A DNA stretch of 64,000 nucleotides. It comes from Coleofasciculaceae cyanobacterium. GTDB lineage: Bacteria; Cyanobacteriota; Cyanobacteriia; Cyanobacteriales; Xenococcaceae. The translations under genes were made by a program, and so were the position numbers. The stretch covers positions 62,001-126,000 of the forward strand of contig DATNPK010000104.1 of assembly GCA_036703275.1 (NCBI GenBank), given 5' to 3'. Below, one piece after another: positions 36,652 through 50,753 of the stretch. The notes under the pieces were generated by a model. The model was not told the DNA's origin, searched no databases, and worked only from the letters and a program-made list of their open reading frames with translations. Numbering within the stretch: position 1 is the first letter of the stretch; the number at the start of each line of letters is the position of its first letter.

Positions 36652-38373
36652 TTATTGATTACTAATATTTGTATTTGCTCCTTCACTCTGAGCCGTATTA
36701 ATTACGGGTAGATGAGTCAGAGGTACGGTGAAAGTAACTGTCGAACCCAAACCTTCTCCCATACTATAAAAAGAAATGCTTCCTCCCATCGCCTCGACTA
36801 GCTTTTGAGAAATAGCCAAGCCCAAACCAGTGCCAGCATAGGATTTAGTGCGTGAGCCATCAACTTGATAAAAGTTTTCAAACAGTTTATTTTGTTTTTC
36901 CAGAGAAACTCCTATTCCTGTATCGGCAACGCTGATTTTAACCATTCCTGGAAATTCTACACCTTGACATTTTATTTTCTTATTATTCACTTCGGCACTA
37001 ATTATAATGCCTCCTTCTTGGGTAAATTTGATGCCATTGCCAACCAGGTTTAACATTACCTGAAGCAGGCGTTGATAATTGCCATAGAGCGTTACAGGAG
37101 TAAGAGTTGCCGGATATTTGAGCTGAAAATTAAGGCCTTTTTGTTCTGCTTGAGTATGAATTAAATTATCTACATTATGAAATAGTTCATCTAGTTCGAT
37201 TTCGGTTAACTCTAATTCCATTTTGCCAGCTTCAATCTTGGCAATATCTAAAATGTCATTGATCAAATTAAGCAAATGAATGGAAGATTTATAGGCTTCT
37301 TCAATAAATTCTCGTTGTTCTTCGGCATTATCCGCCATGCCTTCGAGCAACAGCTTGAGAAAGCCAATAATACCGTTTAGGGGAGTACGCAATTCATGAG
37401 AGGTATTAGCCAGAAAATCACTTTTAAGGCGGTTTGCTTCTTCAGCTTGAATACTTGCCTGCTCGACTTCACGATAGAGCTTGGCTAAGGATACGGCTGC
37501 CTCTACCTGTTCGGCAATTTCCCGCAGCATTTCCATTTCTGCCGTTGTCCAATGGCGATAGCGATCGCACTGTTGTAAACAAATTAAAATATTATTTTCA
37601 CTCTGGCAATTGGTCGACATAACCAAAATAGACTTGCGTTGGAGAACATCTTGTTCAATAAAGTCTACCGCCAAGGGATAACTTGATTCCAACGCCTGTT
37701 GTAAATGAAGCTCATTGTGCCAGTCAACCTGATATTTAGTAGTCGAATCATATTTGGCATGATAATATTCTGCTTCTACCGATAGTCTAGTAATATTGTC
37801 ATAATTTGCCAAAAAAATTAGACAGCGACTAGCAGCAAAAGTTAAACCAACATTATCAACTGTTTGTTGATAAATGGTTGCTAAATCAAGACTACGGCGG
37901 ATCTGGTGAACGACCTCACTCAATAATTTTTGATAGCTATAAATTGCTGCTGGTGCTTCATTCTCAGCAAAAGAAAACATTTCTGCTTCTTCTAACAAAT
38001 GTCCGATAACTAAAACAGCCTGAGGTTCTCCTTTTAGGGGTAGTATGGGGCTAATAACTAGCTCAAAAGAATAGGAGGTTGCGCCAGATTGAAACAGACA
38101 GTAGCATTGTTCTGGTAAGCGACGTTTAATGGCACGGCGAATTTTTTCTAAATAAGCTAAAGAATCAACGGGGGCAAAAACTTGGCTACTTAAATGAGTA
38201 TTATAGCGATCGCTATCTAATCCGTGTTCCTCAGCTTTTGCCCACCAAAAAGAAAGATAATTGCCAGCAATATCCTGAGTAAAAACTAATTCTGCTCCCA
38301 AATGCTGCCATTCAATCTCGCTGACCGACATAGTGGTATTACTATTGAGTTTTGAATCAAATCTAGGGAGCAT
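36652..38373 (-). CDS. GAF-containing sensor histidine kinase
   Basis: The protein has an N-terminal PAS-like region (residues about 20-130), a GAF domain (about 160-300), a short coiled linker (EVEQASIQAEEANRLKSDF) and the kinase core. The phosphoacceptor His is in ANTSHELRTPLNGIIGF; the N box is near LQVMLNLVGNGIKFTQEG, and G boxes DTGIGV and GTGLGLAIS follow. No membrane segment is seen, so it is probably cytoplasmic. Its response regulator is not adjacent. The start is uncertain: ATG at 38373 is taken, a TTG at 38379 adds two residues, and ATG at 38331 (MSVSEIEW) is also possible. Confidence 0.88.
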   Translation of the reverse strand: MLPRFDSKLNSNTTMSVSEIEWQHLGAELVFTQDIAGNYLSFWWAKAEEHGLDSDRYNTHLSSQVFAPVDSLAYLEKIRRAIKRRLPEQCYCLFQSGATSYSFELVISPILPLKGEPQAVLVIGHLLEEAEMFSFAENEAPAAIYSYQKLLSEVVHQIRRSLDLATIYQQTVDNVGLTFAASRCLIFLANYDNITRLSVEAEYYHAKYDSTTKYQVDWHNELHLQQALESSYPLAVDFIEQDVLQRKSILVMSTNCQSENNILICLQQCDRYRHWTTAEMEMLREIAEQVEAAVSLAKLYREVEQASIQAEEANRLKSDFLANTSHELRTPLNGIIGFLKLLLEGMADNAEEQREFIEEAYKSSIHLLNLINDILDIAKIEAGKMELELTEIELDELFHNVDNLIHTQAEQKGLNFQLKYPATLTPVTLYGNYQRLLQVMLNLVGNGIKFTQEGGIIISAEVNNKKIKCQGVEFPGMVKISVADTGIGVSLEKQNKLFENFYQVDGSRTKSYAGTGLGLAISQKLVEAMGGSISFYSMGEGLGSTVTFTVPLTHLPVINTAQSEGANTNISNQ

Positions 38374-38516
38374 TGTCAAGTAGATTACATTTCACTGGAA
38401 TGCCAAACAAATTGGACGTCACACCTGAAACTATAACCTATAGATATCTGAGGTAGGGATTAGTCAGTAGATAGTGTTCAGTACTCAATTCTCAATTCTT
38501 TGCTTCATCCTGCCTC

Positions 38517-38765
38517 TTAGTCGTTCCATTCTCCTTGGGGTGGTACAGGAGGATTACGCTGAAAAGTTCGAGTCAGGTCAGTCTCGCCATTTCTCTCGCC
38601 TCTAAGCCACTGTTTAATCGCTGCTTCAATCACTCGACTGGGATCATTAGTCAGATGCTTAATCTGCTCCAGTACTTCTAAGTCTAAATCGATCGATACC
38701 TGAATTTTGTCTGGCATTCTAGTTTCGCCCTCGGATTTATTCTCGTTAGGGAGCTCATCATTCAT
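38517..38765 (-). CDS. Ribbon-helix-helix protein
   Basis: After an acidic leader, the middle RMPDKIQVSIDLDLEVLEQI and the later HLTNDPSRVIEAAIKQWL form one strand and two helices of the ribbon-helix-helix (CopG/MetJ-like) fold. The tail is Pro-rich (NPPVPPQGEWND). Such proteins act as small transcription regulators or as antitoxins. No toxin gene lies beside it, and the neighbouring stretch before it codes for nothing obvious. The internal ATG at residue 17 could be the start. Confidence 0.7.
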   Translation of the reverse strand: MNDELPNENKSEGETRMPDKIQVSIDLDLEVLEQIKHLTNDPSRVIEAAIKQWLRGERNGETDLTRTFQRNPPVPPQGEWND

Positions 38766-39138
38766 AAACGTTTTTCCTGATTCATTTTTTTATTTTACCT
38801 ATTAGACCAGAACCCTCGCTTAAAACGCGATCGACTTAAGAAAAATCTGCAATCTTATTGGAAATAGGTAAAAATGAACATTACAATTAGTTTAAACGAA
38901 TAGAGGTATGACCCCACATCGCCACGAAGAATTTGTCCGCAGATAAAGACTTGCACGCTTATCTTATAGCGAAGCGCAACGAGTTGCGCTTCTGTGATCC
39001 GTTGAAGAGACTGTTGCAAGAAGTTATGCCGTAGGCTTATCCTGATCGAGAAACCGCATCAAGATGCGTATCTACTAGGCACAAGGGAAAGCACTCCAAA
39101 TAATAACTTTTAAAAACTTTTAATTATTATAAATTTTT
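38766..39138. other. Intergenic region upstream of lepA with a perfect inverted repeat
   Basis: The DNA is GC-richer in the centre and contains GAAGCGCAA (38971-38979) and its complement TTGCGCTTC (38984-38992) with a four-base loop, plus a smaller CGCATC / GATGCG pair at 39055-39068. Neither is followed by a T tract, so a terminator is unlikely. The style resembles the modular repeat blocks but no shared module was found. The lepA promoter should lie in its distal part. Confidence 0.5.
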
Positions 39139-40950
39139 ATGACTGACGTTCCCGTCTCTCGCATCCGTAACTTCTCAATCATTGCTCATATCGATCATGG
39201 TAAATCTACCCTGGCAGATCGAATGCTGCAATCTACTGGCACCGTTGCCCAGAGGCAGATGAAAGAACAATTCCTCGACAACATGGATTTGGAGCGAGAA
39301 CGAGGAATTACCATCAAGCTACAGGCAGCTAGAATGAACTACACTGCCAAAGATGGGCAAAAATATGTTTTAAATCTAATTGATACTCCTGGTCACGTAG
39401 ATTTTTCTTATGAAGTATCGCGCTCTCTAGCTGCTTGCGAAGGCGCATTATTAGTAGTAGATGCTTCTCAAGGAGTTGAAGCACAAACTTTAGCTAATGT
39501 TTATTTAGCATTAGAAAACGATCTAGAAATTATTCCCGTACTCAACAAAATTGATTTACCAGGAGCTGAGCCCGAGCGCGTTGCTCAAGAAATTGAGGAT
39601 GTAGTAGGTTTAGACTGTACTGATATTATTCAGGCTTCAGCTAAGATTGGTTTGGGAGTTGACGATATTTTAGAAGCGATCGTGCAGCTAGTACCACCGC
39701 CCCAAAACACTATAGACGAACCTCTACGTGCGCTGATTTTTGATAGCTATTACGATGCCTATCGTGGAGTAGTTGTTTATTTTCGGGTTATGGATGGCAC
39801 GGTTAAAAAAGGCGATAACGTACGTCTGATGGCATCGGGGAAAGAATACGTTATTGATGAACTTGGAGTTCTTTCCCCAACTCAGGTGGAAGTTGATGAA
39901 CTTCATGCAGGGGAAGTAGGTTATTTTGCTGCTGCGATTAAAGCTGTAGAAGATGCCCGTGTCGGCGACACTATTACTTTAGTAGATACTCCTGCACTAA
40001 AGCCTTTGCCTGGATACACCGAAGCTAAGCCGATGGTTTTTTGTGGTTTGTTTCCCATAGACTCGGATCAATATTCTGACCTCAGAGAAGCCTTAGAAAA
40101 ACTGAAGCTTAACGATGCTGCTCTTTCCTATGAACCCGAAACCTCAAGCGCCATGGGTTTTGGCTTTCGTTGTGGATTTTTAGGGCTGCTGCACATGGAA
40201 ATTGTCCAAGAAAGACTAGAACGAGAATATAACCTCGAACTTATTACTACCGCACCTTCGGTCATCTATCGTGTTACCACCATAGAAGGGGAAGTAATGG
40301 AAATCGATAACCCTAGTCTTTTACCCGATCCTCAACAGCGCGAGAAGATTGAAGAGCCTTATATTAAGGTAGAAATTATTACCCCCGAAAACTACGTCGG
40401 TACCTTAATGGACTTGTGCCAGACTAGACGGGGAGTTTTTAAGGACATGAAGTATTTTACGCAAAACCGTACTTGTTTGATTTACGAACTTCCTCTAGCC
40501 GAAGTAGTTACCGACTTTTTTGACCAGATGAAGTCCCGTACTAAAGGTTATGCCAGTATGGAATACCAAATGTTAGGCTATCGTGCGGATCATTTAGTCA
40601 AGTTAGACATTCTCGTAAACAAAGATCCCGTAGACGCGCTTTCAACTATTGTGCATCGAGACAAGGCTTATTATGTTGGTCGAGCATTAACTGAAAAGCT
40701 CAAAGAATTAATTCCCCGCCATCAGTTTAAAGTGCCAATTCAAGCTGCTATTGGGGCAAAAGTTATCGCTAGTGAACACATTCCTGCCTTACGTAAAGAT
40801 GTTTTGGCTAAATGTTACGGTGGTGACATTTCTCGTAAGAAAAAACTACTGCAAAAACAAGCCAAGGGGAAAAAACGGATGAAAGCCATTGGTACAGTAG
40901 ATGTTCCTCAAGAAGCATTTATGGCAGTGTTGAAATTGGGCAAAGAGTAA
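39139..40950 (+). CDS. lepA: Elongation factor 4
   Basis: EF4 (LepA) is a ribosomal GTPase that back-translocates tRNAs or aids ribosome biogenesis. The G1 box [15 protein letters not shown] (residues 14-28), [18 protein letters not shown] and the four-domain layout without the EF-G domain IV are seen, with a LepA-specific C-terminus ([23 protein letters not shown]). The length of 603 is standard. The chosen ATG gives [21 protein letters not shown]. Monocistronic, after a repeat-containing leader. Confidence 0.96.
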
Positions 40951-41063
40951 TTGCTGGTCGGCGATCGCAATTTCGATTAACACTATGGGAAATCTAAAGA
41001 GTATGGCGATCGCTTTAACTAAATATTTTATATTTGAGAAGTATCCAGTCATAAGCTTGCGAT

Positions 41064-41645
41064 ATGAATACCTACACTCTTAATTTGAAACCTTTAGCTA
41101 ATCGCATTACTGTTGAACACTTTGAACAGTTATGTCAGCTTAATCCTGACTTAAAACTAGAAACAAATGATCGAGGAGAGTTACTCATTATGCCTCCCAC
41201 TGGCTATGAGACAGGAATGAACAACGCTGGATTGATCGCCCAATTTTGGAATTGGAATCGAAAATATAAGCTAGGTGTGGTGTGTGATTCTTCTACAGGT
41301 TTTATTTTAGCCAATGGTGCAATTCGATCGCCTGACGTAAGCTGGATAGCTAAGGAAAGAGTTAATCGTTTGACGAGAGAAGAGAAAACGAAGTTTTTAT
41401 CTCTAGCGCCAGACTTTGTTTTAGAGTTGATGTCACCAAGTGATCGCCTGGAAACGATTCAGGCTAAGATGAAAGAGTATCAAGATAACGGTGTTAAATT
41501 AGGCTGGTTAATCAATTCTCAACAGCAACAAGTAGAAATATATCGCTTGGGACAATCTACCGAAATATTAAACAAACCTCTTACTATGTCAGGAGAAAAT
41601 ATATTAATTGAATTAGTAATTGAGTTAGATTTTATTTGGGAATAG
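41064..41645 (+). CDS. Uma2-family putative endonuclease
   Basis: The fold is PD-(D/E)xK-like: LETNDRGELLIMPPTG, SPDVSWIAKERV (the Asp of PDV), DFVLELMSPSDR (Glu) and VKLGWLINSQQQQVEIYR (Lys region). Uma2/DUF820 proteins are abundant in cyanobacteria, with unclear biological role, possibly transposon- or restriction-related nucleases. Length 193 is normal. Its stop is followed by a gene-poor region. Confidence 0.85.
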   Translation: MNTYTLNLKPLANRITVEHFEQLCQLNPDLKLETNDRGELLIMPPTGYETGMNNAGLIAQFWNWNRKYKLGVVCDSSTGFILANGAIRSPDVSWIAKERVNRLTREEKTKFLSLAPDFVLELMSPSDRLETIQAKMKEYQDNGVKLGWLINSQQQQVEIYRLGQSTEILNKPLTMSGENILIELVIELDFIWE

Positions 41646-42037
41646 TTAGTATTGCTAGTAATTTAAAAAAAGCGCTCGCCTTTGCCATTTCAATTTGAGC
41701 AAGAGCGATCGCGTTCTAGGAATTACTTTAAATTATGAAACTTAACGCTGATTTTATCATCTAATATATTATTGTTATGGAAGGTGAAAAAGAAGATATA
41801 GATCGAATCGGTGAGCAAATTTTACTTAATGGGTGACGTTACTTATCATCACATCAGATGAATTCATTTGAATTGACTGATGATTGTTTGTTAGAGCTAC
41901 CGTAATGTTTTCTTGAATGTTTGTTGTACAAGTATTACTCATTACCTAGTACTGAAGTATTTGCCGAGAATCTCAGAGAAAAATTCCATTAATAAATTCG
42001 ACATTTTTGTACTGTTTTACTCCTGATATCAACATTT
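41646..42037. other. Gene-poor stretch after the Uma2 gene
   Basis: No supported frame. A 19-codon piece (MEGEKEDIDRIGEQILLNG, from about 41777) reads like the start of a lost gene but has no continuation. The stretch lies between a plus-strand gene and the convergent end of the kinase gene, so it may contain their terminators; none is clear. Confidence 0.3.
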
Positions 42038-43976
42038 TTATTCTCCTTGAATAATTTTAAGATTTTTTCTAGCTACTTCGTCGCCAAGATTAGCAGCTTT
42101 TTGAAAGTCTCTAATTGCCCCTTGCCTATCTCCTAAATGATTATGAAGAATATCACCTCGATTGTTATAAGCATCGGCATAATCTGAATTGAGAAGGATA
42201 GCTTGTGTATAATCTTCAATAGCTGCTCGATAATCTTTTAAGTCCAAGCGAATATTGCCTCTATTGAAATAGGATTCAGCAATATTATCGTTACGGAAGC
42301 GAGAACGAGTTAGCTTGAAGTTTTGATTTTTTTGCCCTAGACGAGCTATTTTCAAAGTAACTTGAGTATTAACTTCGCCACGAATTAGACTAGTTACATA
42401 ATCTAAATCTTTGTTAGCAGTAGATTTACCATTTACTTTCAAGATTCTGTCGTCTACTTTAATACCTTTCTTATAAGCTGAGGAATCTTTGAAAACTTCG
42501 GTAACCATAGGAAATTTATTTTTATCTTTTGTTAGTGAAATTCCTGCCCCGACGATATATTCTTCTATTTCTCTTTCAGCCAAATCTCGCTGCTGCGGCA
42601 ATTGTTGTTTTTCAGCTTCAGCTTGCTTTTCTTCTGCTTTGGTTTGTAAATAAGATGTCGTAAGTCCATAAATTGCGATTTTTGAAAATGCAACTAAAAT
42701 TGCAGCACTAGCAATTAACAATTTATTTTTATGTTTGACGATTATTGAAGGTGCTGTTTGAGCTACTTGTGATAGCTGCGTAGAATTCTGTTTGAATACT
42801 TGTGACTTAGATTGATAATTTTGATGTGTTGTTTGAGATGAAGAAGAAGGTGGTTTTTTCGGAAAGTACTTTTGTGTAATGTCACCTAATGCTCGATCAT
42901 CTTTCTGATATTTTATAGTTTCACTCTTTTTCGAGGGAATTCTAGCTTTTCCAATCCCACCAGGAAAAATATCAACCCCTAGATTAGCAACGCGATCGCA
43001 CCAACAACATTTACCATAATGCTTACTATAATGATGACTATCCACTTGGTTACAAACAGTTAGTTCATTAACTGCAACCTCTAAAGTGTTGTGCCAATCT
43101 AAAGCAGTAGGGCGTAGATGAGGTTTTGTATGTCCTTCGTTAAAACATTTGAGAAATAGCTTTTTAAGTTCTGGATGAACGACATCGAGGGGGATGGTAG
43201 TTTTGCTAGCGCGGATCGGACTATTATAAGCAGCATACCAATAGCCTTGTTTAATTAATTCAGTTTGTTCGGGAGATTCCCCTACACCAGTCCAGTTTCC
43301 AAAAAAAGGATGATAGCCAAATAGTAGATAATGAATTAATACTCCCAAGCGAAAGCGATCGTGTATTTCGGTTTGATTGCTAGTGTCAAAGTCTTTGCTT
43401 AAGAGTTCGGGAGGAGTAAAGCCTTCGGAATCTACGGTACAGCGATATACTTTACTAGATTGGGGATTTCGTACCTGAAAGGAATCAGTATCAATTACCG
43501 CAGTCATAGGGCGATCGTTTACAAGAATGTTCTCTAGCTTGATATCTCCCAAGACATATACCTTTGGCATGAATCTCTTGAATAATCCACGCGGTATTTA
43601 ATACCGTGACGTGGAGATAATACCAGTTAAAGCCTGGGGCGACTTTTTTACGCAGTCGGGGATTGTAGACACTAGAAAGCTGTTTACTATCTGCGATCGC
43701 TGGCATCAAAAAGCCGAGATATTTACTATTACTATCTTTAAGTAAATCCGATACCCAAGCAATAGAAACATGATTGTGACTCAACATCGGATCGGCTGGT
43801 GGGTTAGCCAGCATCACCTTCAGCTTGGCAATTCTAGCTGGGATGGGCTCATGATAAATTTTTGCTAGATAGCCTTTAAGATTAGTTTCCCAAACTTGTC
43901 CTTCGCCACTATCGGCAATCTGCTTGGTTAAAGATACAGGCTGATTATTACTGTGGCGGGTTAGAAGAACTATCAT
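42038..43976 (-). pseudogene. TerY-P-type protein kinase with PDZ and TPR domains, frameshifted
   Basis: Frame 1 (43976-43560) has the ATP-binding loop (DSGEGQVWETN), the beta strand YLAKIYHE and the helix NTAWIIQEIHAKG. Frame 2 from 43558 continues YVLGDIKLENILVNDRP (catalytic Asp, KxEN) and AVIDTDSF (DTD in place of DFG). Removing one base at 43559 joins them into about 645 residues. Downstream are a zinc-binding-like Cys/His patch (SKHYGKCCWCDRV), one membrane segment (LLIASAAILVAFSKIAIYGL), a PDZ domain (GAGISLTKDKNKFPMVTEVF) and two TPRs at the end. It overlaps the phosphatase gene by 29 bases. A frameshift or sequencing error is to be decided. Confidence 0.85.
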
Positions 43977-44838
43977 ATAAACACAAAAACAAGGTTTTAT
44001 CGTCGTCGGTGCGGGCGTTTAGCCTGTCTGAATTTAGGAAACTCAACAAGTATTCGTCTGACTCTTCCAAGTTGTTGGTTTCCCGTAGATATTGTTCTAG
44101 TGGTTGAAAGAAAGGAGTAAAAGGTGTCCAGTCACTCATGCGAATTGCTAATCTTTCTAGCCCATCAGTGGAAGCACAGACAAATTCTGGCTGTCCAGGC
44201 TGTACCGCTACTTTCATATCTTTTAAAGCATTACTCGAAGTAACAAAAGTAGTTTCGTTGATGTATTCCCCTTTATCGGGAGGAAAAAGTAGTTGTGGAT
44301 CTTGTTCGGGATAACGGACAGTAATAAAGCCATCGCCAATCTGCATTGCAGCTATTCCTTCAAAAGTTGCCACAACAATTAGCAAAGTACAGGCTAAATC
44401 GTCAATAGAATAATTATTGCTTTCCGCTTGGGTTGATAAAGCAGGTACTACTTGCTTAACAATTTTGCTAAAAAACTGATTAGCCTTTAATTCAGTAGGA
44501 GATTGAGCAATAGTAACAGCGGCATTGCTATTTTTCTCACTCTTGCCTAATAAATTCCAAGGCTTCCAGGCTGAGTTTGTTCTTTCCGTTTCCTTAACGC
44601 TATGAGAACCGTACAATTCGGTAATAGTAGCGATATCTTGAGCTGTGAACGTCTTTAAAACCGTATCCACAGCTAACTTTGCACCAATATTGCTATGTTT
44701 AGCACTACCAGCCCCATCTGCTACGACACCGATAATTGCATCATTAATAATTTTATAATCGCCATAATCCTGACAGGGCATCTGCTGCTTAGTATGACTC
44801 GTTCCAATTGCCGAACGAGCGATCGCTTTCGAGTTCAT
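43948..44838 (-). CDS. PP2C-family protein phosphatase of a TerY-P triad
   Basis: The PP2C core has GVVADGAGSAKHSNIGAKLAVD (the metal-binding Asp in VADGAG), LACTLLIVVATFEGIAAMQIGDG, ASTDGLERLA and the terminal DDKTLFLCLYD. It lacks a signal peptide or membrane segment. Position between a VWA gene and a kinase gene fits the known TerY-P phosphorylation triad, in which the kinase and phosphatase act on each other or a shared target. The stop is 29 bases inside the kinase start. It begins 123 bases downstream of the VWA gene. Confidence 0.9.
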   Translation of the reverse strand: MNSKAIARSAIGTSHTKQQMPCQDYGDYKIINDAIIGVVADGAGSAKHSNIGAKLAVDTVLKTFTAQDIATITELYGSHSVKETERTNSAWKPWNLLGKSEKNSNAAVTIAQSPTELKANQFFSKIVKQVVPALSTQAESNNYSIDDLACTLLIVVATFEGIAAMQIGDGFITVRYPEQDPQLLFPPDKGEYINETTFVTSSNALKDMKVAVQPGQPEFVCASTDGLERLAIRMSDWTPFTPFFQPLEQYLRETNNLEESDEYLLSFLNSDRLNARTDDDKTLFLCLYDSSSNPPQ

Positions 44839-44857
44839 TAGTTCTCCTTTGTGTTTA

Positions 44858-44945
44858 AAGTCCCCCAGACTTGGGAGATTTAGGGTGGGTGGAAATGCTT
44901 CTGGCTAAGAAGCTTATTCCACACCCACCCGAAGGGGGCGTTTCA
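44858..44945. repeat. Large imperfect hairpin between VWA and PP2C genes
   Basis: GGGTGGGTGGAA (44883-44894) pairs with TTCCACACCCACCC (44917-44930) with a two-base bulge, and an inner stem GCTTCT / AGAAGC (44897-44902 / 44908-44913) extends it. CCCCC at 44862-44866 and GGGGG at 44935-44939 extend the outside. The style (CCCCCAGA...GGGGG) is like the C5/G5-rich palindromes common in cyanobacterial intergenic DNA. It may act as an attenuator inside the operon or be a mobile miniature element. Confidence 0.7.
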
Positions 44946-44961
44946 AATTTAACTTACTCAT

Positions 44962-45621
44962 TTATGTAGTAATTTGACCCCAACCAACCGCAGGTAAAGC
45001 CACCATCGAACCACCTACCTTACTACCTGAAACTCGTTTCATGGAGGTAGATAACCATTGGAATATTGAGGTAAAATCCAAACCGTTAAGCAGTACGGGA
45101 GGACGTTCGGGCAAAGCAATTTGTCGTAGTTTGTTCATATCTGCTCCTGCTACACCCACAGCAAAAAACAGCATTCTACGTTGTGCTTCCATTTCTCTGA
45201 TTCTTTGTGCCGCATTGTGCCAACTGTCTGTAGGTGCGCCATCGGTAATTAAGAACACCCAAGGGCGATAATATTGAACCCCATTATTTTTATAGGTTTC
45301 TTTGCGTTGTTCCATTAAATCCAAAGCATATTCGATCGCTTCTCCCATTGGAGTAACACCATCGGCAGTCAGTCTAGGGGATAAAAACTCATCAATAGTT
45401 ACAAAATCCTGAGTTAAGCGCACAGGGCCAAATGTCACCAGGGCAACTTCTACTCGTAAAGATGCAATTTCATCTTTATACACATCCTTCTGGAAAGCAG
45501 CTAAACCAGTATTTAAAGCATTTATTGGTTCTCCTTGCATCGAACCAGATGTATCGCACAACAAAATTACTGGGCAACGTGGTTCGGGATTTTCCACAAA
45601 TTCTGGTAATCCAATAGGCAT
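44962..45621 (-). CDS. TerY-like VWA protein
   Basis: The von Willebrand A domain starts directly: PVILLCDTSGSMQGEPI contains the MIDAS DxSxS, TPMGEAIEYALDLM the MIDAS Thr, and ITDGAPTDSW the Asp. The ATG at 45621 (MPIGLPEFVENPEPRC) is preferred; a longer frame from 45678 would add 19 residues of unlike composition. TerY-type proteins are scaffold-like VWA modules in tellurite/stress systems and in phosphorylation triads. It is the first gene of the leftward VWA, PP2C and kinase set. Length 219. Confidence 0.9.
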   Translation of the reverse strand: MPIGLPEFVENPEPRCPVILLCDTSGSMQGEPINALNTGLAAFQKDVYKDEIASLRVEVALVTFGPVRLTQDFVTIDEFLSPRLTADGVTPMGEAIEYALDLMEQRKETYKNNGVQYYRPWVFLITDGAPTDSWHNAAQRIREMEAQRRMLFFAVGVAGADMNKLRQIALPERPPVLLNGLDFTSIFQWLSTSMKRVSGSKVGGSMVALPAVGWGQITT

Positions 45622-45895
45622 CTTAAATTCTTTGTAGTATAAAATTCTTAACTTGATCAAGGCTGAAATGTTTTGCATTTCTCATTACCTATAGTTAAGA
45701 TGCCCAAATAATTGAGGAAATTCTCAGGTTTTGCAAGTAAAAAATCGTGATTAATCAAGTTTTAAGCACTTTTAATTTGAAAAACCCGTTAGAAAATACT
45801 TTTTTGTTTATGTAGAATAATTGGAAAGCTTAGAGTCTAAGACCTAAAACGCTAACACCTTAAAAACTTATAAATCAAATTAATAATATTAAAAA

Positions 45896-47350
45896 ATGAC
45901 TATTGAAGATGTTTCTGAATCGATTAAGATTCAAAATCGCCCTAAGCGTCAGGTAGGAATGCTAACTATCTTCCGTCTAGGCTTGTTTAATCTGGGATTG
46001 GGATTGATGGCGGTGCTGACTCTTGCGGTGCTAAATCGGGTGATGATTAGCGAATTAGGTGTCCCTGCAACTATTACTGGCGGGATTTTAGCTACCTCTT
46101 TGTTTGTTTCGCCGGCGCGGGTGTGGTTTGGACAGCTATCAGATAATAAACCTTTATTAAGCAAGCATCGTACCAATTACGTCTTGCTGGGGACAGCAAT
46201 TTTTGGTTTAGCGGTGTTCTTAGCGGTGCAGGTGGTATGGAAATTAGGGGCGGTAATAGAGGCTAGCGCTGGTTGGGTATGGAATAGTCAAACTATTGGC
46301 TGGAGTGCTTTATTGTGTCTAATTATGGCTATTTACGGTTTGGCGGTTAGCTGTAGCTCAACGCCATTTACCGCTTTACTGGTAGATATTACTGAAGAAG
46401 AAGAACGTTCTAAATTAATTGCGATCGTTTGGTCGATGTTAATGGTAGGGATTGTTATTGGCGGAGTTAGTGGCAGCATTGTCTTTAAAAATATTGAAGC
46501 GCAAGGAATTACCTCAGGCAATATTCCCCTCGAAATATTACAGCCATCGATAAATTCTGTCTTTAGCTTTGTCCCCTTTTTAGTCATAGCTTTAGCTCTT
46601 ATTGCTACCTGGGGAGTAGAAAAAAGGTATTCCCGTTTTACTAGCAATACCGTAATTGAGCGCGATGATAGCATTAGCCTTAGTCGAGCGCTACGAATTC
46701 TAACTACTAGCCGTCAAACAGGCATTTTCTTTACTTTTCTGTCTGTTCTTACCATTGGCTTGTTTATGCAGGAAGCAGTGCTTGAACCCTATGGTGGAGA
46801 AGTATTCGGTATGAGTATTGGTGAGACTACTCAACTCAATGCTTTTTGGGGAATTGGTATTTTACTAGGTTACAGTATTACCGGATTTTTTATTATTCCT
46901 GCACTCGGTAAAAAATTAACTACCAAAATCGGCTGTATTTTAGTTACATTCTGTTTCCCAATAATTATTTTAGCTGGCTTTACTCAACAACCAAAAATGC
47001 TGCAATCAGCAATGGTGTTGTTTGGGATTGCTGCGGGGATAGCTACCGTTGGAGGAATTAGCTTGATGTTAGACTTAACTGCTGCCAAAACAGCAGGTAC
47101 TTTTATTGGCGCATGGGGATTAGCTCAAGCAATGTCTCGAGGGCTAGCTACTCTCATTGGGGGATTGATTTTAGATATTGGTAAAAGTATTTTTGCTGTT
47201 CCCTTATTCTCTTATAGCTTGGTATTTATCATGCAAGCAATCGGGATAATCTTGGCAATCATAATCTTAGAACGGGTTGATGTTAAAGAGTTTAAAGAAA
47301 CTACAGGCAAAGCACTTTCAACCGTAATGGAAGGAGATTTGGATGGCTAA
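45896..47350 (+). CDS. BCD-family (PucC/LhaA-like) membrane transporter
   Basis: The protein has about twelve membrane segments of the major facilitator fold. The start region RLGLFNLGLGLMAVLTLAVLNRVM and the loop SPARVWFGQLSDN are typical of the BCD family. PucC and LhaA are linked to light-harvesting complex assembly or chlorophyll/bacteriochlorophyll handling; cyanobacterial members have no fixed substrate. Length 484 fits. It is divergent from the VWA gene, with about 217 bases between. Confidence 0.9.
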   Translation: MTIEDVSESIKIQNRPKRQVGMLTIFRLGLFNLGLGLMAVLTLAVLNRVMISELGVPATITGGILATSLFVSPARVWFGQLSDNKPLLSKHRTNYVLLGTAIFGLAVFLAVQVVWKLGAVIEASAGWVWNSQTIGWSALLCLIMAIYGLAVSCSSTPFTALLVDITEEEERSKLIAIVWSMLMVGIVIGGVSGSIVFKNIEAQGITSGNIPLEILQPSINSVFSFVPFLVIALALIATWGVEKRYSRFTSNTVIERDDSISLSRALRILTTSRQTGIFFTFLSVLTIGLFMQEAVLEPYGGEVFGMSIGETTQLNAFWGIGILLGYSITGFFIIPALGKKLTTKIGCILVTFCFPIIILAGFTQQPKMLQSAMVLFGIAAGIATVGGISLMLDLTAAKTAGTFIGAWGLAQAMSRGLATLIGGLILDIGKSIFAVPLFSYSLVFIMQAIGIILAIIILERVDVKEFKETTGKALSTVMEGDLDG

Positions 47351-47374
47351 ATAATGTCTTTCTCAAAGTTTTTC

Positions 47375-47857
47375 TCAAAACAATGATGAACCCTGATACA
47401 TATTGATAAAAGGTGAAACGTGCAATTCTTCAGGAAATAAATTGGCTAGGAAAAAGTCTAAGGTAGTTGATTTAAGAAATCCTTGAAATACCGCAACTGT
47501 ACCAAAACGAACTCCTGTAGATCTTTGTTCGGCTAAAATTACTTCAATCTGTGCGCTACTCAGGATTGCAGCTTCTCTGAGATAATAGCCTAAAGCATTT
47601 TTCTCGGGATCAATGACTACTTTTGACCAATCTTGAGCAAAAAAATCAGCAGTTTTGGGCTTAATTATCTCTTTTTTTGCCAAAATTTCACCGATTCGCA
47701 GCTCAGGATATTGTGCTTTGTCCTCTAGCGCAGATTTGATTTGAAATGACGAAACTAAATCTGCCTCTGTCAGAGTTTCTCCTAAAGTTTTGGTTTGTAC
47801 TGCTAGAAGACGGCGGATATCAGAACGAGCTTTTGAGGTTAATCGATAAGATGCCAT
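47375..47857 (-). CDS. Cyanobacterial protein, GspE-N-like repeats
   Basis: 160 residues with two repeats of a pattern like LGEILAKKEIIKPKTADFF and YLREAAILSSAQIEVILAEQ, close to MshEN/GspE N-terminal small domains, which bind cyclic di-GMP or nucleotides in some secretion ATPases. The C-terminal FGTVAVFQGFLKSTTLDFFL is another copy-like segment. No ATPase domain follows, so it is a stand-alone version. I have seen such proteins in cyanobacteria without a role. It is convergent with the BCD transporter, 24 bases apart. Confidence 0.6.
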   Translation of the reverse strand: MASYRLTSKARSDIRRLLAVQTKTLGETLTEADLVSSFQIKSALEDKAQYPELRIGEILAKKEIIKPKTADFFAQDWSKVVIDPEKNALGYYLREAAILSSAQIEVILAEQRSTGVRFGTVAVFQGFLKSTTLDFFLANLFPEELHVSPFINMYQGSSLF

Positions 47858-48073
47858 GGTAAAAACTTAAATGAAAATATAAATATTAAAAGTTTAGATA
47901 GTAAATCTGTTTTTATTTAATAATAAATTTTTTTGCGGTAATCATCTTCCGTAATTATGACAAATATGCCTACGGTATTTACTGGTTTTCTTATAACCTA
48001 AAAATTGTGATCCCAAGCATGAGTAGCTTATTTTAAATCACATAATATGTAGAAATAAATATACTACAAAATT

Positions 48074-48604
48074 ATGCTTAGTCGTCAAGATATAGTTCGG
48101 GAAATCCACCGAGTAGAAGTTATTACGCTCAACGTTAAGAAAGAAATAAAAACCTTAAAAAATAGTGTTCGTGCTTATAAGGGATGGACAAAAAAATATC
48201 GTCAGCAACAAAATGAATTAAAACAACAAAACGCTATTTTGAAACAAGATTATCTAGCTGTTTGTCAACAAAGAGATGAAGTAGAGAAACAACTACAACA
48301 ATTACAAATTAAGCAACAACATTTATTAGAAAGCCTTGAGGAAGCAAAGTACGCTAAAGAATCACGCGACAAAGCTGTATCACAATTAGAAAAGGTAATT
48401 GCTAAAATTGAGCAGTATAAAGAAGCGTGCGATCGCGCTAACAAAATAAGCTATGCCGATAAAATATACTTGATTAAAGAAGCTGAAAATCTTCTTTTCA
48501 ATGAGGAAATACCAACTTGGGATATTGATATTAAGTTTGACAGTAGATCGCAACCACAAATGTTCACCGATCCAGCTGCCATTGGTCGTAGTTTATTAGA
48601 TTAA
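48074..48604 (+). CDS. Coiled-coil protein of unknown function
   Basis: Almost all of the 176 residues can form one long coiled coil (residues 5-125: KKEIKTLKNSVRAYKGWTKK and KQQHLLESLEEAKYAKESRD). The C-terminal 45 residues are less helical (EEIPTWDIDIKFDSRSQPQ). No membrane segment. The next gene follows by 16 bases and is probably co-expressed. A scaffold or SMC-like accessory role is possible but not shown. Confidence 0.55.
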   Translation: MLSRQDIVREIHRVEVITLNVKKEIKTLKNSVRAYKGWTKKYRQQQNELKQQNAILKQDYLAVCQQRDEVEKQLQQLQIKQQHLLESLEEAKYAKESRDKAVSQLEKVIAKIEQYKEACDRANKISYADKIYLIKEAENLLFNEEIPTWDIDIKFDSRSQPQMFTDPAAIGRSLLD

Positions 48605-48620
48605 TAATTTATTTTAAATT

Positions 48621-49001
48621 ATGGTACTCAATCAATTAAAACAAATTAGAGACGAATTAAAGAAAAGTGGTGATGCTTATGACGCGGCTTTTAAAAATAC
48701 GGCTTTGATCGCAGCAGAAGAGTTAGTCAGCCGAGAAAAACAATTAAAAAGCGATCGACAGACTTCTTCTTGTCTAAATCCTGTTCTAGATAAACAGTAC
48801 TTTATCGCTAACTACGGAAGCTTGAAAAACTCGAAAATAGCATATCAGAAAATTTATGGTAATCAAAATTACGGTCGTAGTTGGTCAGATTTTATTGGAC
48901 TCGCCAAAAAGTTAACTCTGCCTAAACAACAAACACTAACTTTAGAAGAGAGAGTGACTAAATTAGAAAACTTCTTAAGTAGCTTGGGATATCAACTTTG
49001 A
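48621..49001 (+). CDS. Unknown protein following the coiled-coil gene
   Basis: The 126 residues start with a helical part (NQLKQIRDELKKSGDAYDAAF) and continue into a polar region with YFIANYGSLKNSKIAYQKIY and a C-terminal short coil (TLEERVTKLENFLSSLGYQL). It has no motif I recognise. It is closely linked to the upstream coiled-coil gene (16 bases) and the shared coiled-coil ends suggest the two may interact. No signal peptide. Confidence 0.5.
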   Translation: MVLNQLKQIRDELKKSGDAYDAAFKNTALIAAEELVSREKQLKSDRQTSSCLNPVLDKQYFIANYGSLKNSKIAYQKIYGNQNYGRSWSDFIGLAKKLTLPKQQTLTLEERVTKLENFLSSLGYQL

Positions 49002-49032
49002 GACTCCCGGCGCGGGAAACGAGGGACTTTTC

Positions 49033-49236
49033 TCATCGCCAAGATACTAGCGCAGGAGGTAGTTTATCCTGACTATCTTCAACTGAAAAACTAACCTAAT
49101 AGCCATCAGCTTTTTTGGTCACAGAAACAGTTTTGAGTTTAAATTCAAGCTCAATATCTCTAGACTTAACCAACTTTAAAATACCTAACTTAGGCAATTT
49201 AATTGTATTACCAACTAAATTCTCAAATTTTATTTA
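49033..49236 (-). pseudogene. TnpB (IS200/IS605-type OrfB) fragment
   Basis: The minus-strand frame reads NTIKLPKLGILKLVKSRDIE, then FKLKTVSVTKKADGY, an in-frame TAG (49096-49098) and VSFSVEDSQDKLPP. This is the small conserved domain before the RuvC part of TnpB proteins (KLPK-G ... K-A-GYYV). Only about 65 codons remain. No TnpA, ends or target site can be seen, so it is a relic of an IS605-family insertion or of a domesticated TnpB. Confidence 0.75.
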
Positions 49237-49439
49237 GCCTAAATTTTAGCCAATAGTATCAAAAACTCATGACAATTCGAGAGTGTTTTGGACAGGCGCA
49301 TATTTTGTTGCCTTCTCGATGGCGTTACCATAGATGTACTGATAAAAATATCTTTAGGTATATTGTCCTGCTGATTCATACCCTCAAGTCTCAAGAGGCG
49401 ATGAATCAAAACAAAAGATAAATTGACGACAGCAAAATT

Positions 49440-49892
49440 ATGAGTCAGACAGCTATTTTCCATTTAACTATTCCCATCAACAACATTGCTCAAGCCAAAG
49501 AATTTTACGCCGAAGGTTTAGGCTGTAAAGTAGGTCGTGAAAACCAAGTCGCTATAATCTTTGATTTTTACGGCACTCAACTAGTAGGTCACGTTACTCG
49601 AGAACCTTTAACAAGACCATCAGGGATCTATCCAAGACACTTCGGTTTAATCTTACCCACAAAACTGGCCTGGGAGCAAATATGCGATCGCGCTCAAGAG
49701 CAAAAAATTACTTTTTATCATCAACCAAAGTTACGCTTCCCTAATCAAACGTTAGAGCATTATTGCTTTTTTCTAGAAGATCCATTTTACAATTTGCTGG
49801 AATTCAAATACTATAGCGAGTCTGAAGTAATTTTTGGCGGTAGGCATTCTGATTTAATTGGAGAAACTGCTGTGTCCAACCAAGAAAAATAA
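49440..49892 (+). CDS. VOC-family (glyoxalase-like) protein
   Basis: The protein has the paired beta-alpha-beta-beta-beta modules of the VOC fold: IFHLTIPINNIAQAKEFYAEG, then LGCKVGRENQVAIIFDFYGTQL, and the C-terminal HYCFFLEDPFYNLLEFKYY with a metal-binding Glu. VOC enzymes include glyoxalases, dioxygenases and resistance proteins. The specific substrate cannot be read from the sequence. Length 150 is typical. The ATG overlaps a short opposing frame that is not coding. Confidence 0.85.
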   Translation: MSQTAIFHLTIPINNIAQAKEFYAEGLGCKVGRENQVAIIFDFYGTQLVGHVTREPLTRPSGIYPRHFGLILPTKLAWEQICDRAQEQKITFYHQPKLRFPNQTLEHYCFFLEDPFYNLLEFKYYSESEVIFGGRHSDLIGETAVSNQEK

Positions 49893-49916
49893 AAATAATT
49901 AGTTATTTTGGTAAAA

Positions 49917-50753
49917 CTAAATTACCGCTCCTAAAGTCGTGATTAACAGCATTAAAATCAGCACAGTAAATACTCCTAGGAAAAAACTACTAATAAATAA
50001 AATATGTTGCTGTCTTTTGGTACGACTTGTAGAGGCTATTTTGTAACTATAGCCAGTAGCTTTGGATGAATTAAAAGTACGCTTATTTTTATTTAGCTTG
50101 GTTCTAATTTCTTGTTGAACCAGAGAGTATTGATTAGTTAAATTAACAATCGTGTTTTCTTGAGACTTAATTGTTTCTTGTAATTGAAACAGTCCAGATG
50201 TCAAGTTAGATAAGATATGATTCATTTCAGACGCTTGACTAGAGTTGTTGGCATACCCTATATCTTGCTGTACTATGGCTTTAACTTTATGGGGATTTTG
50301 AATTATTTCTGTAGCGCCATTATTTGACTGCATATTCTTGTGTAGCGAACCGTCCCAGTTACCTAGTATAGGACCGATTTGGAAAAAGCCTTTTTTAGTT
50401 AATCGAATAATGCTGGCAATATCTTTAACGTTGGTATTTTTAAGAACATAGCCTCTAGAACCTGCTTTTAAAGCCAAATTCAGCTGTTCTCTGTCATCTT
50501 GACTCGTAAGAAGCACAACCTTGATCTGGGGAAAACGCTGAACAATTTTTTCGGTTGCTTGTATGCCGTCGAGTTTGCCTGGCATATTGATATCCATCAA
50601 AACCACATCTGGTTGATATTTTTCAACTAGCGCGATCGCTTTCTCTCCATTATTTGCCAATCCAATGATCTGTATATTTGGTTCACTAGATAAGTTAATT
50701 TTCAAAAACTCTCTAATGCTGCCTAAGTCATCAACGATTAAAACTGTAGTCAT
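49917..50753 (-). CDS. Response regulator with C-terminal membrane anchor
   Basis: Residues 1-125 are a NarL-like receiver: VLIVDD (Asp8-9), VVLMDINMPG with phospho-acceptor Asp54, VVLLTSQDD, and VLKNTNVKD (Lys). No DNA-binding domain follows. Instead a linker, a coiled-coil-like part (LFQLQETIKSQENTIVNLTN) and one membrane segment at residues 250-275 (HILFISSFFLGVFTVLILMLLI) complete it. The protein is therefore tethered to the membrane. It may gate a membrane target or localise signalling. No cognate kinase gene is adjacent. Confidence 0.85.
   Translation of the reverse strand: MTTVLIVDDLGSIREFLKINLSSEPNIQIIGLANNGEKAIALVEKYQPDVVLMDINMPGKLDGIQATEKIVQRFPQIKVVLLTSQDDREQLNLALKAGSRGYVLKNTNVKDIASIIRLTKKGFFQIGPILGNWDGSLHKNMQSNNGATEIIQNPHKVKAIVQQDIGYANNSSQASEMNHILSNLTSGLFQLQETIKSQENTIVNLTNQYSLVQQEIRTKLNKNKRTFNSSKATGYSYKIASTSRTKRQQHILFISSFFLGVFTVLILMLLITTLGAVI

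Follow-up and report, generated by a model that had tools for sequence, protein, structure and literature searches.

The three-gene locus

We analysed a stretch of 64,000 nucleotides from a Coleofasciculaceae cyanobacterium (contig DATNPK010000104.1, positions 62,001 to 126,000; hereafter the window). On the minus strand of 42038-45678, the list of open reading frames (ORFs) gives a VWA gene, a PP2C gene and a kinase gene in two pieces. We consider it likely, at a probability of about 0.7, that this locus is a cyanobacterial form of the TerY-P / YegL-PphC-YegI phosphorylation switch, membrane-anchored and with a tail that sets the signal. The observed basis of this reading is the gene order, the domain anatomy, the conserved catalytic and Cys/His residues, and the presence of different tails on similar kinase cores. 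The triad is of a known kind, correctly named in an earlier note on this DNA, and its type of kinase tail is recurrent elsewhere. That note placed the VWA, PP2C and kinase genes in this leftward order; the ORFs lie where it put them, and Pfam supports all three. The features are given below by position in the window; G007 and G012 are two further genomes of what is probably the same genus, Myxosarcina.

44962-45621, minus strand: VWA protein (TerY/YegL-like), 219 amino acids; Pfam VWA PF00092, E 1.1e-11; 51% identity to YegL
43948-44838, minus strand: PP2C protein (PphC/YegK-like), 296 amino acids; Pfam PP2C_2 PF13672, E 2.2e-49
43948-43976, minus strand: overlap of 29 bases between PP2C end and kinase start, from ORF coordinates; of equal length in G007 and G012
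43491-43976, minus strand: kinase front ORF; homology covers 43548-43976 (143 residues), and the frame is open on to 43491
43548-43564, minus strand: zone in which the kinase frame changes over, in the catalytic loop; from homology ends and ORF coordinates
42038-43570, minus strand: kinase rear, 510 codons; GDIKLENILV, DTDSFQV, C-lobe, Cys/His motif, linker, membrane segment, PDZ, TPR
43472-43492, minus strand: DTDSFQV motif replacing DFG; D27, D29, S30 and Q32 invariant in 12 kinases
42998-43054, minus strand: predicted zinc-binding Cys/His motif (rear-piece C173, H179, C188, C191); residues unchanged across alignments of 12 and of 27 kinases, with a hairpin plus helix in the structure model
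42662-42718, minus strand: predicted membrane segment (rear-piece residues 285-303), after KHKNK; from hydropathy and a helix in the model
42314-42550, minus strand: PDZ domain, Ctp-protease type; Pfam, NCBIfam prc (E 1.5e-18), Foldseek CtpA/CtpB
42092-42280, minus strand: TPR repeats; Pfam, Foldseek TPR proteins

The similarity of the VWA protein to Escherichia coli YegL, which we take to be of the TerY type, extends over 211 columns, with DTSGS/DVSGS, TPMG and TDGAPTD aligned; the metal-site motif is intact, and the protein is 98% identical to its counterpart in G012 and 95% to that in G007. An upstream in-frame ATG at 45678 would give an alternative of 238 amino acids. The PP2C protein is 33% identical to E. 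coli PphC (E 6e-38), with ADGAGS, GDG, TDG and TDDDKT aligned, and has a longer middle than PphC (253 amino acids). This middle (44401-44700) is less conserved: its three 100-base blocks have 64-74% DNA identity to G012 and 61-81% to G007, against 92 and 99% (G012) and 90 and 91% (G007) for the blocks flanking it. The G012 PP2C is longer than that of the window by 37 residues.

Gene order in relatives

A scan of GTDB contigs gave at least 481 confirmed relatives, and the triad is thus common in cyanobacteria. The best 80 loci were fetched, cyanobacterial by their record titles, so that counts on these 80 lean to close cyanobacterial relatives. VWA and PP2C genes lie upstream of the kinase, in order, at 65 loci; two have only the VWA gene, one has only the PP2C gene and 12 have neither. 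Among 17 further kinase places in relatives of the window's genome, which were taken from the matches listed and do not count weaker kinase relatives, both partners were found at 12, PP2C alone at two and neither at three, within the stretch fetched. The VWA protein and the kinase front occur in the same three of 13 genomes of the genus. The earlier note had staked its reading on homologous kinases that keep both the PDZ and TPR tail and the VWA/PP2C neighbours. The outcome is mixed, as the gene order is kept at 65 of the 80 loci but most tails are not PDZ-TPR.

In Anabaenopsis elenkinii, this kinase core also occurs in an open frame of 1353 codons (L137, from 3563 onward) that has no VWA or PP2C match upstream in the available DNA, and another kinase of the same genome (L138) has both upstream.

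Kinase domain architecture

Residues 1-143 of the kinase front match the intact kinases of G007 (94%) and G012 (90%); the front alone has no Pfam match at E 1. For the rear piece, Pfam reports Pkinase (E 7.9e-8; 32.4 bits, cut-off 31.7), PDZ_6 (E 5.7e-12) and TPR_1 (E 2.7e-11). NCBIfam gave no match above cut-off, the prc match falling below that of its family, with the PDZ part alone matching. A structure model of the rear piece has a mean pLDDT of 71 and a pTM of 0.42, with residues 1-30 and 207-287 under 50, and this low overall confidence means that only single domains should be trusted. The model has a hairpin (170-182) and a helix (189-197) around the Cys/His residues, a low-confidence linker, a long helix (284-343), and then the PDZ domain and the TPRs. 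The 50 Foldseek matches at E 0.001 are Ctp proteases (on the PDZ domain) and TPR proteins (at the end), with no kinase among the 50 for the rear piece.

The catalytic Lys, GD.K..N, DxD and the C/H/C/C residues are conserved in the kinase alignments, and DxDSFQ is found in all 80 fetched kinases (79 DTD, one DVD). Each of the parts that the earlier note had listed for the kinase (DTD, Cys/His motif, membrane segment, PDZ, TPR) is present by Pfam, the alignment of relatives, hydropathy or the structure model, and a membrane-anchored kinase is the likely product as judged from sequence. The description of these parts as an unusual combination did not survive, as DxD occurs in 80/80 fetched kinases and in E. 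coli YegI, the Cys/His motif is invariant, and PDZ tails occur at four of the 80 loci. We also considered DTD as an anomaly or the sign of a dead kinase and rejected this, as the motif is family-wide, YegI included.

Comparison with known phosphorylation systems

A passage of PMC11090510, describing Anantharaman et al. 2012, presents the TerY-P triad as a TerY-like VWA protein, a PP2C-like enzyme and a kinase fused C-terminally to a zinc ribbon. The window has a TerY-like VWA protein, an adjoining PP2C and a Ser/Thr kinase with a predicted C-terminal zinc-ribbon-like motif, and at sequence level the TerY-P label is well founded. It differs from the described triad in its extra membrane-PDZ-TPR tail and in the placement of TerD; by eye, moreover, the ORFs at 38000-50000 showed no restriction or DNA-processing gene, the flanks having had no family search. 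A link to TerD, tellurite or DNA-processing genes is frequent in TerY-P systems but optional; in agreement with the earlier note, no TerD gene lies nearby, as the three TerD matches of the genome are all on contig 95 and the window is on contig 104. These are three consecutive TerD-family genes (L064:7071-9113), and the 17 kb fetched there gave no match to the VWA, PP2C or kinase of the triad. The stretches around them and around another PP2C of this genome (contig 25) had no triad-protein match at E 0.01. No second triad was seen in the genome: at E 1e-10 the VWA protein matched once, and at E 1e-5 so did the kinase front.

E. coli K-12 has yegL, pphC (yegK) and yegI in the same order as the three genes of the window, with yegJ between pphC and yegI. 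The rear piece of the window kinase is 31% identical to YegI over 204 columns (E 5e-23). YegI has DSD at the place of DFG, a C-H-CPWC motif and hydrophobic segments behind the motif; the window kinase likewise has DxD for DFG and a hydrophobic segment after its Cys/His motif. YegI differs in having three hydrophobic segments in the same scan and a weak, sub-cut-off helix-hairpin-helix match in its tail in place of PDZ-TPR, while the window kinase differs from YegI in its frame break. According to passages of PMC13232886, YegI is a membrane-bound Ser/Thr kinase that autophosphorylates and is dephosphorylated by PphC, and earlier work had found no condition promoting expression.

Related gene sets are described in excerpts of two other papers: an island of Helicobacter pylori with a TerY-P triad (PMC4978471), and actinobacterial GAP1-N2 neighbourhoods, in which a kinase fused to a zinc ribbon or to transmembrane helices lies beside PP2C and a standalone vWA (PMC7159879). 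The latter share vWA-PP2C-kinase with the window.

A frame break in the kinase gene

The frameshift pointed out in the earlier note is present in this sequence: the front homology ends at about 43548, the rear homology begins at about 43564, and the two frames are one base out of step. Whether the kinase is intact in relatives, a check that the note had proposed, can be answered, as front and rear lie in one ORF at 77 of the 80 loci and in G007 and G012. The exceptions are L087 and L133, where the two halves fall in separate ORFs, and L142, truncated by the end of its contig. For the rear core, dN/dS is 0.21 between the window's genome (G000) and G007, 0.21 between G000 and G012, and 0.19 between G012 and G007; three-taxon arithmetic by hand puts the branch values at about 0.23 for the window and about 0.18 for G012. 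Selection behind the break is hardly relaxed, which argues for a recent break or an assembly error. As the kinase frame is interrupted here, by a recent break or an error in the sequence, this strain may have no active switch.

A true pseudogene in a locus that is decaying in the lineage, with VWA and PP2C remaining and the switch dead, deserves serious thought, although we lean against it. The break falls in the catalytic loop, and two genomes of the same family have reduced kinases, one (G017) with a kinase ORF of only 247 amino acids, the other (G014) with only the rear half, another tail, and no VWA/PP2C match in the 25.5 kb examined. A dN/dS of 0.21 behind the break, near the 0.19 between the two intact relatives, is not what such decay would predict. 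Nor is the conservation of the rear frame, which keeps 39 columns invariant over 12 kinases (the window itself among the 12), and the genome is a draft of 116 contigs.

In G017, VWA and PP2C genes are followed by the 247-residue ORF (L039:4829-5572), a second short kinase in the family. The G014 remnant (L038:4193-5662), without the front half, has an FGE-sulfatase domain at its end; the 25.5 kb in question are L038 and L066.

Variety of kinase tails

Tails behind the Cys/His motif were cut from 79 of the 80 kinases (not L087), labelled with single-seed profiles and counted by hand. WD40 was found in 30, TPR alone in 10, PDZ without WD40 in three, FGE-sulfatase in two and GUN4 in one; the other 33 of the 79 are to be read as unclassified, not tail-less, as the labels rest on single seed sequences. 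A fourth PDZ tail, L078, is counted among the 30 WD40 tails. Pfam confirms PDZ in L089, L093 and L120; in L078, where the Pfam table is filled by propeller families, PDZ rests on the seed profile and the tail comparison. Among the kinases compared (E 1e-3), the part of the window tail that comprises the membrane segment and PDZ (its first 160 residues) matches only L089, L078, L120 and L093, with whole-tail identities of 37-39%. The kinase of Nostoc sp. FACHB-110 (L089) matches rear residues 5-508 of the window at 43%, from the catalytic loop to the last TPR. Like the window, it has the membrane segment, PDZ and TPR, with VWA and PP2C upstream; it differs in having front and rear in one frame and in a core only 59% identical to that of the window, whereas kinases with other tails reach 86-87%.

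The nearest cores to the window are those of G012 (87%) and G007 (86%), and the tails on these three closely similar Myxosarcina kinases are PDZ-TPR (window), TPR (G007) and WD40 (G012). The G007 TPRs match those of the window (55% over 71 residues), with no PDZ match in G007. Up to the end of its contig, the G012 tail gave no match to that of the window; contig ends truncate some tails, that of G012 among them, so a PDZ domain may yet lie behind its WD40 part. A core tree of the quick kind (195 columns, SH-aLRT support only, 95 rows, 40 of them unlabelled, L078 labelled WD40) was built after dropping L087 and L039, which lack CxWC, L067, which shares a contig with L036, and L038, which is missing its front. 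It groups the window, G012 and G007 with an SH-aLRT of 100 and three different tails. On this tree the PDZ label changes four times for four rows, and all labels change 13 times for 55 labelled rows, five being the minimum possible; label shuffling gave a mean of 19.6 changes, with 0/200 shuffles as low as 13. Tail labels are clustered relative to shuffling, which points to tails that are partly inherited and often exchanged or lost. On the sequences compared, tails change faster than kinase cores.

In contig 95 of another genome, G041, a canonical Hanks kinase (HRD, DFG) carries a TPR-PDZ-TPR tail (L147:1923-4307), with an adjoining enolase-like gene by eye; this tail type is therefore not confined to triad kinases.

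We tentatively suggest that these triads are a plug-in signalling chassis, in which VWA, PP2C and the kinase core would be fixed and the tail behind the Cys/His motif exchanged on short timescales, out of a repertoire that canonical Hanks kinases also use. The exchangeable modules would be PDZ-TPR, TPR, WD40, PQQ-propeller, FGE-sulfatase-like and GUN4. In this scheme the window has the PDZ variant, which would detect protein C-termini exposed outside the cytoplasm and would thus parallel DegS-type envelope surveillance, with a kinase coupled to it. Closely related kinases whose main difference lies in the tail provide a natural domain-swap series for testing the tail's role. This series is the part worth following; the window itself is modest, with a known triad, a tail type that recurs, and a frame change that probably reflects a recent break or an error in the sequence.

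Proposed mechanism and alternatives

In the YegI-like switch that we favour, the kinase domain and the Cys/His motif would be cytoplasmic, held by one membrane helix, and the PDZ-TPR tail would be on the outer (periplasmic) side, where it could bind an exposed protein C-terminus or a partner. Tail binding would alter kinase clustering and autophosphorylation, PP2C would reset the kinase, and VWA might serve as an adaptor or substrate that passes the state on. By the positive-inside rule, KHKNK before the only predicted membrane segment of the window kinase leads us to expect a cytoplasmic kinase and an outside tail. The resemblance of the PDZ domain to Ctp proteases and one solved entry among the Foldseek matches, entitled as CtpB with a peptide having a Val-Pro-Ala C-terminus, suggest by analogy a ligand type. 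Autophosphorylation and dephosphorylation by PP2C are likewise carried over from the E. coli work, from passages of one paper.

Several points weigh against this switch. Twelve of the 80 kinases have neither partner upstream in the available DNA, of which four start within 140 bases of its end. The window kinase has no single open frame, which is needed for a working triad though no stated criterion of the family. At E 0.01, Pkinase does not match E. coli YegI itself. A crude hydropathy scan showed no membrane segment in 24 of 97 tails, some of them cut by contig ends, so outside sensing cannot hold family-wide, and tails of the WD40 and TPR kinds are better known as scaffolds in the cytoplasm. 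Our literature search turned up no biochemical data on a cyanobacterial member. In the open literature on TerY, the triad, and PDZ/TPR/WD40/PP2C kinases in cyanobacteria, with subscription papers mostly outside coverage, no title dealt with this group. The signal and target of the cyanobacterial triad are absent from the open literature searched, and we make no claim that the tail variety is unpublished.

It is possible, if doubtful, that the tail is not an outside sensor but works in the cytoplasm as a scaffold, bringing substrates to a kinase tethered to the membrane. Of the tails recognised among the 79, WD40 (30) and TPR alone (10) are the most frequent, and several such tails have no membrane segment, or have one behind the propeller. 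In the window, however, KHKNK precedes the sole membrane helix and the tail comes after it, and the PDZ domain is of the kind found in Ctp proteases, which are exported proteases.

A role as an anti-phage defence module of the TerY-P kind seems unlikely. Passages citing Gao et al. 2020 describe TerY-P activity against T7-like phages (PMC7699616) and count TerY-P-like modules with an OB-fold kinase as stand-alone defence systems (PMC11090510); the patchy presence (3/13 genomes of the genus) and the variable tails would fit conflict systems. At E 1, however, Pfam gave no OB-fold family for the rear piece. The weak PADLOC match to mad6 (E 2e-5) covers the kinase core only, with no other PADLOC match at E 0.01, and in PHROGs only families of unknown function matched. 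The neighbours, judged by eye and unsearched, look like lepA and a transporter and not like an island.

Programmed ribosomal frameshifting, to which the two long overlapping frames might point, is hardly credible, as a single frame is found in 77 of 80 relatives and in both close relatives, and no slippery run was seen by eye in the DNA.

An intergenic repeat between the VWA and PP2C genes

The large palindrome that the earlier note had described between VWA and PP2C is real: the RNA fold of 44840-44975 has a z of -3.84, with 0/200 shuffles as good.

about 44855-44947, no strand assigned: dispersed intergenic palindromic repeat between VWA and PP2C; from further copies in the genome and site comparison

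We rejected it as a regulatory or structural part of the locus, as it is a dispersed repeat that G007 and G017 lack at this site, a judgement made without an Rfam or promoter search. Three other long copies, of 76-93 bases and 90-92% identity, are present in G000, and shorter or weaker matches occur in four of 14 other genomes, all four of the same genus (G012 is outside the 14). At the VWA-PP2C site, the repeat is identical in G012, while in G007 and G017, which do not have it, VWA and PP2C lie close. The simplest explanation of this pattern would be an insertion before the split of G000 and G012.

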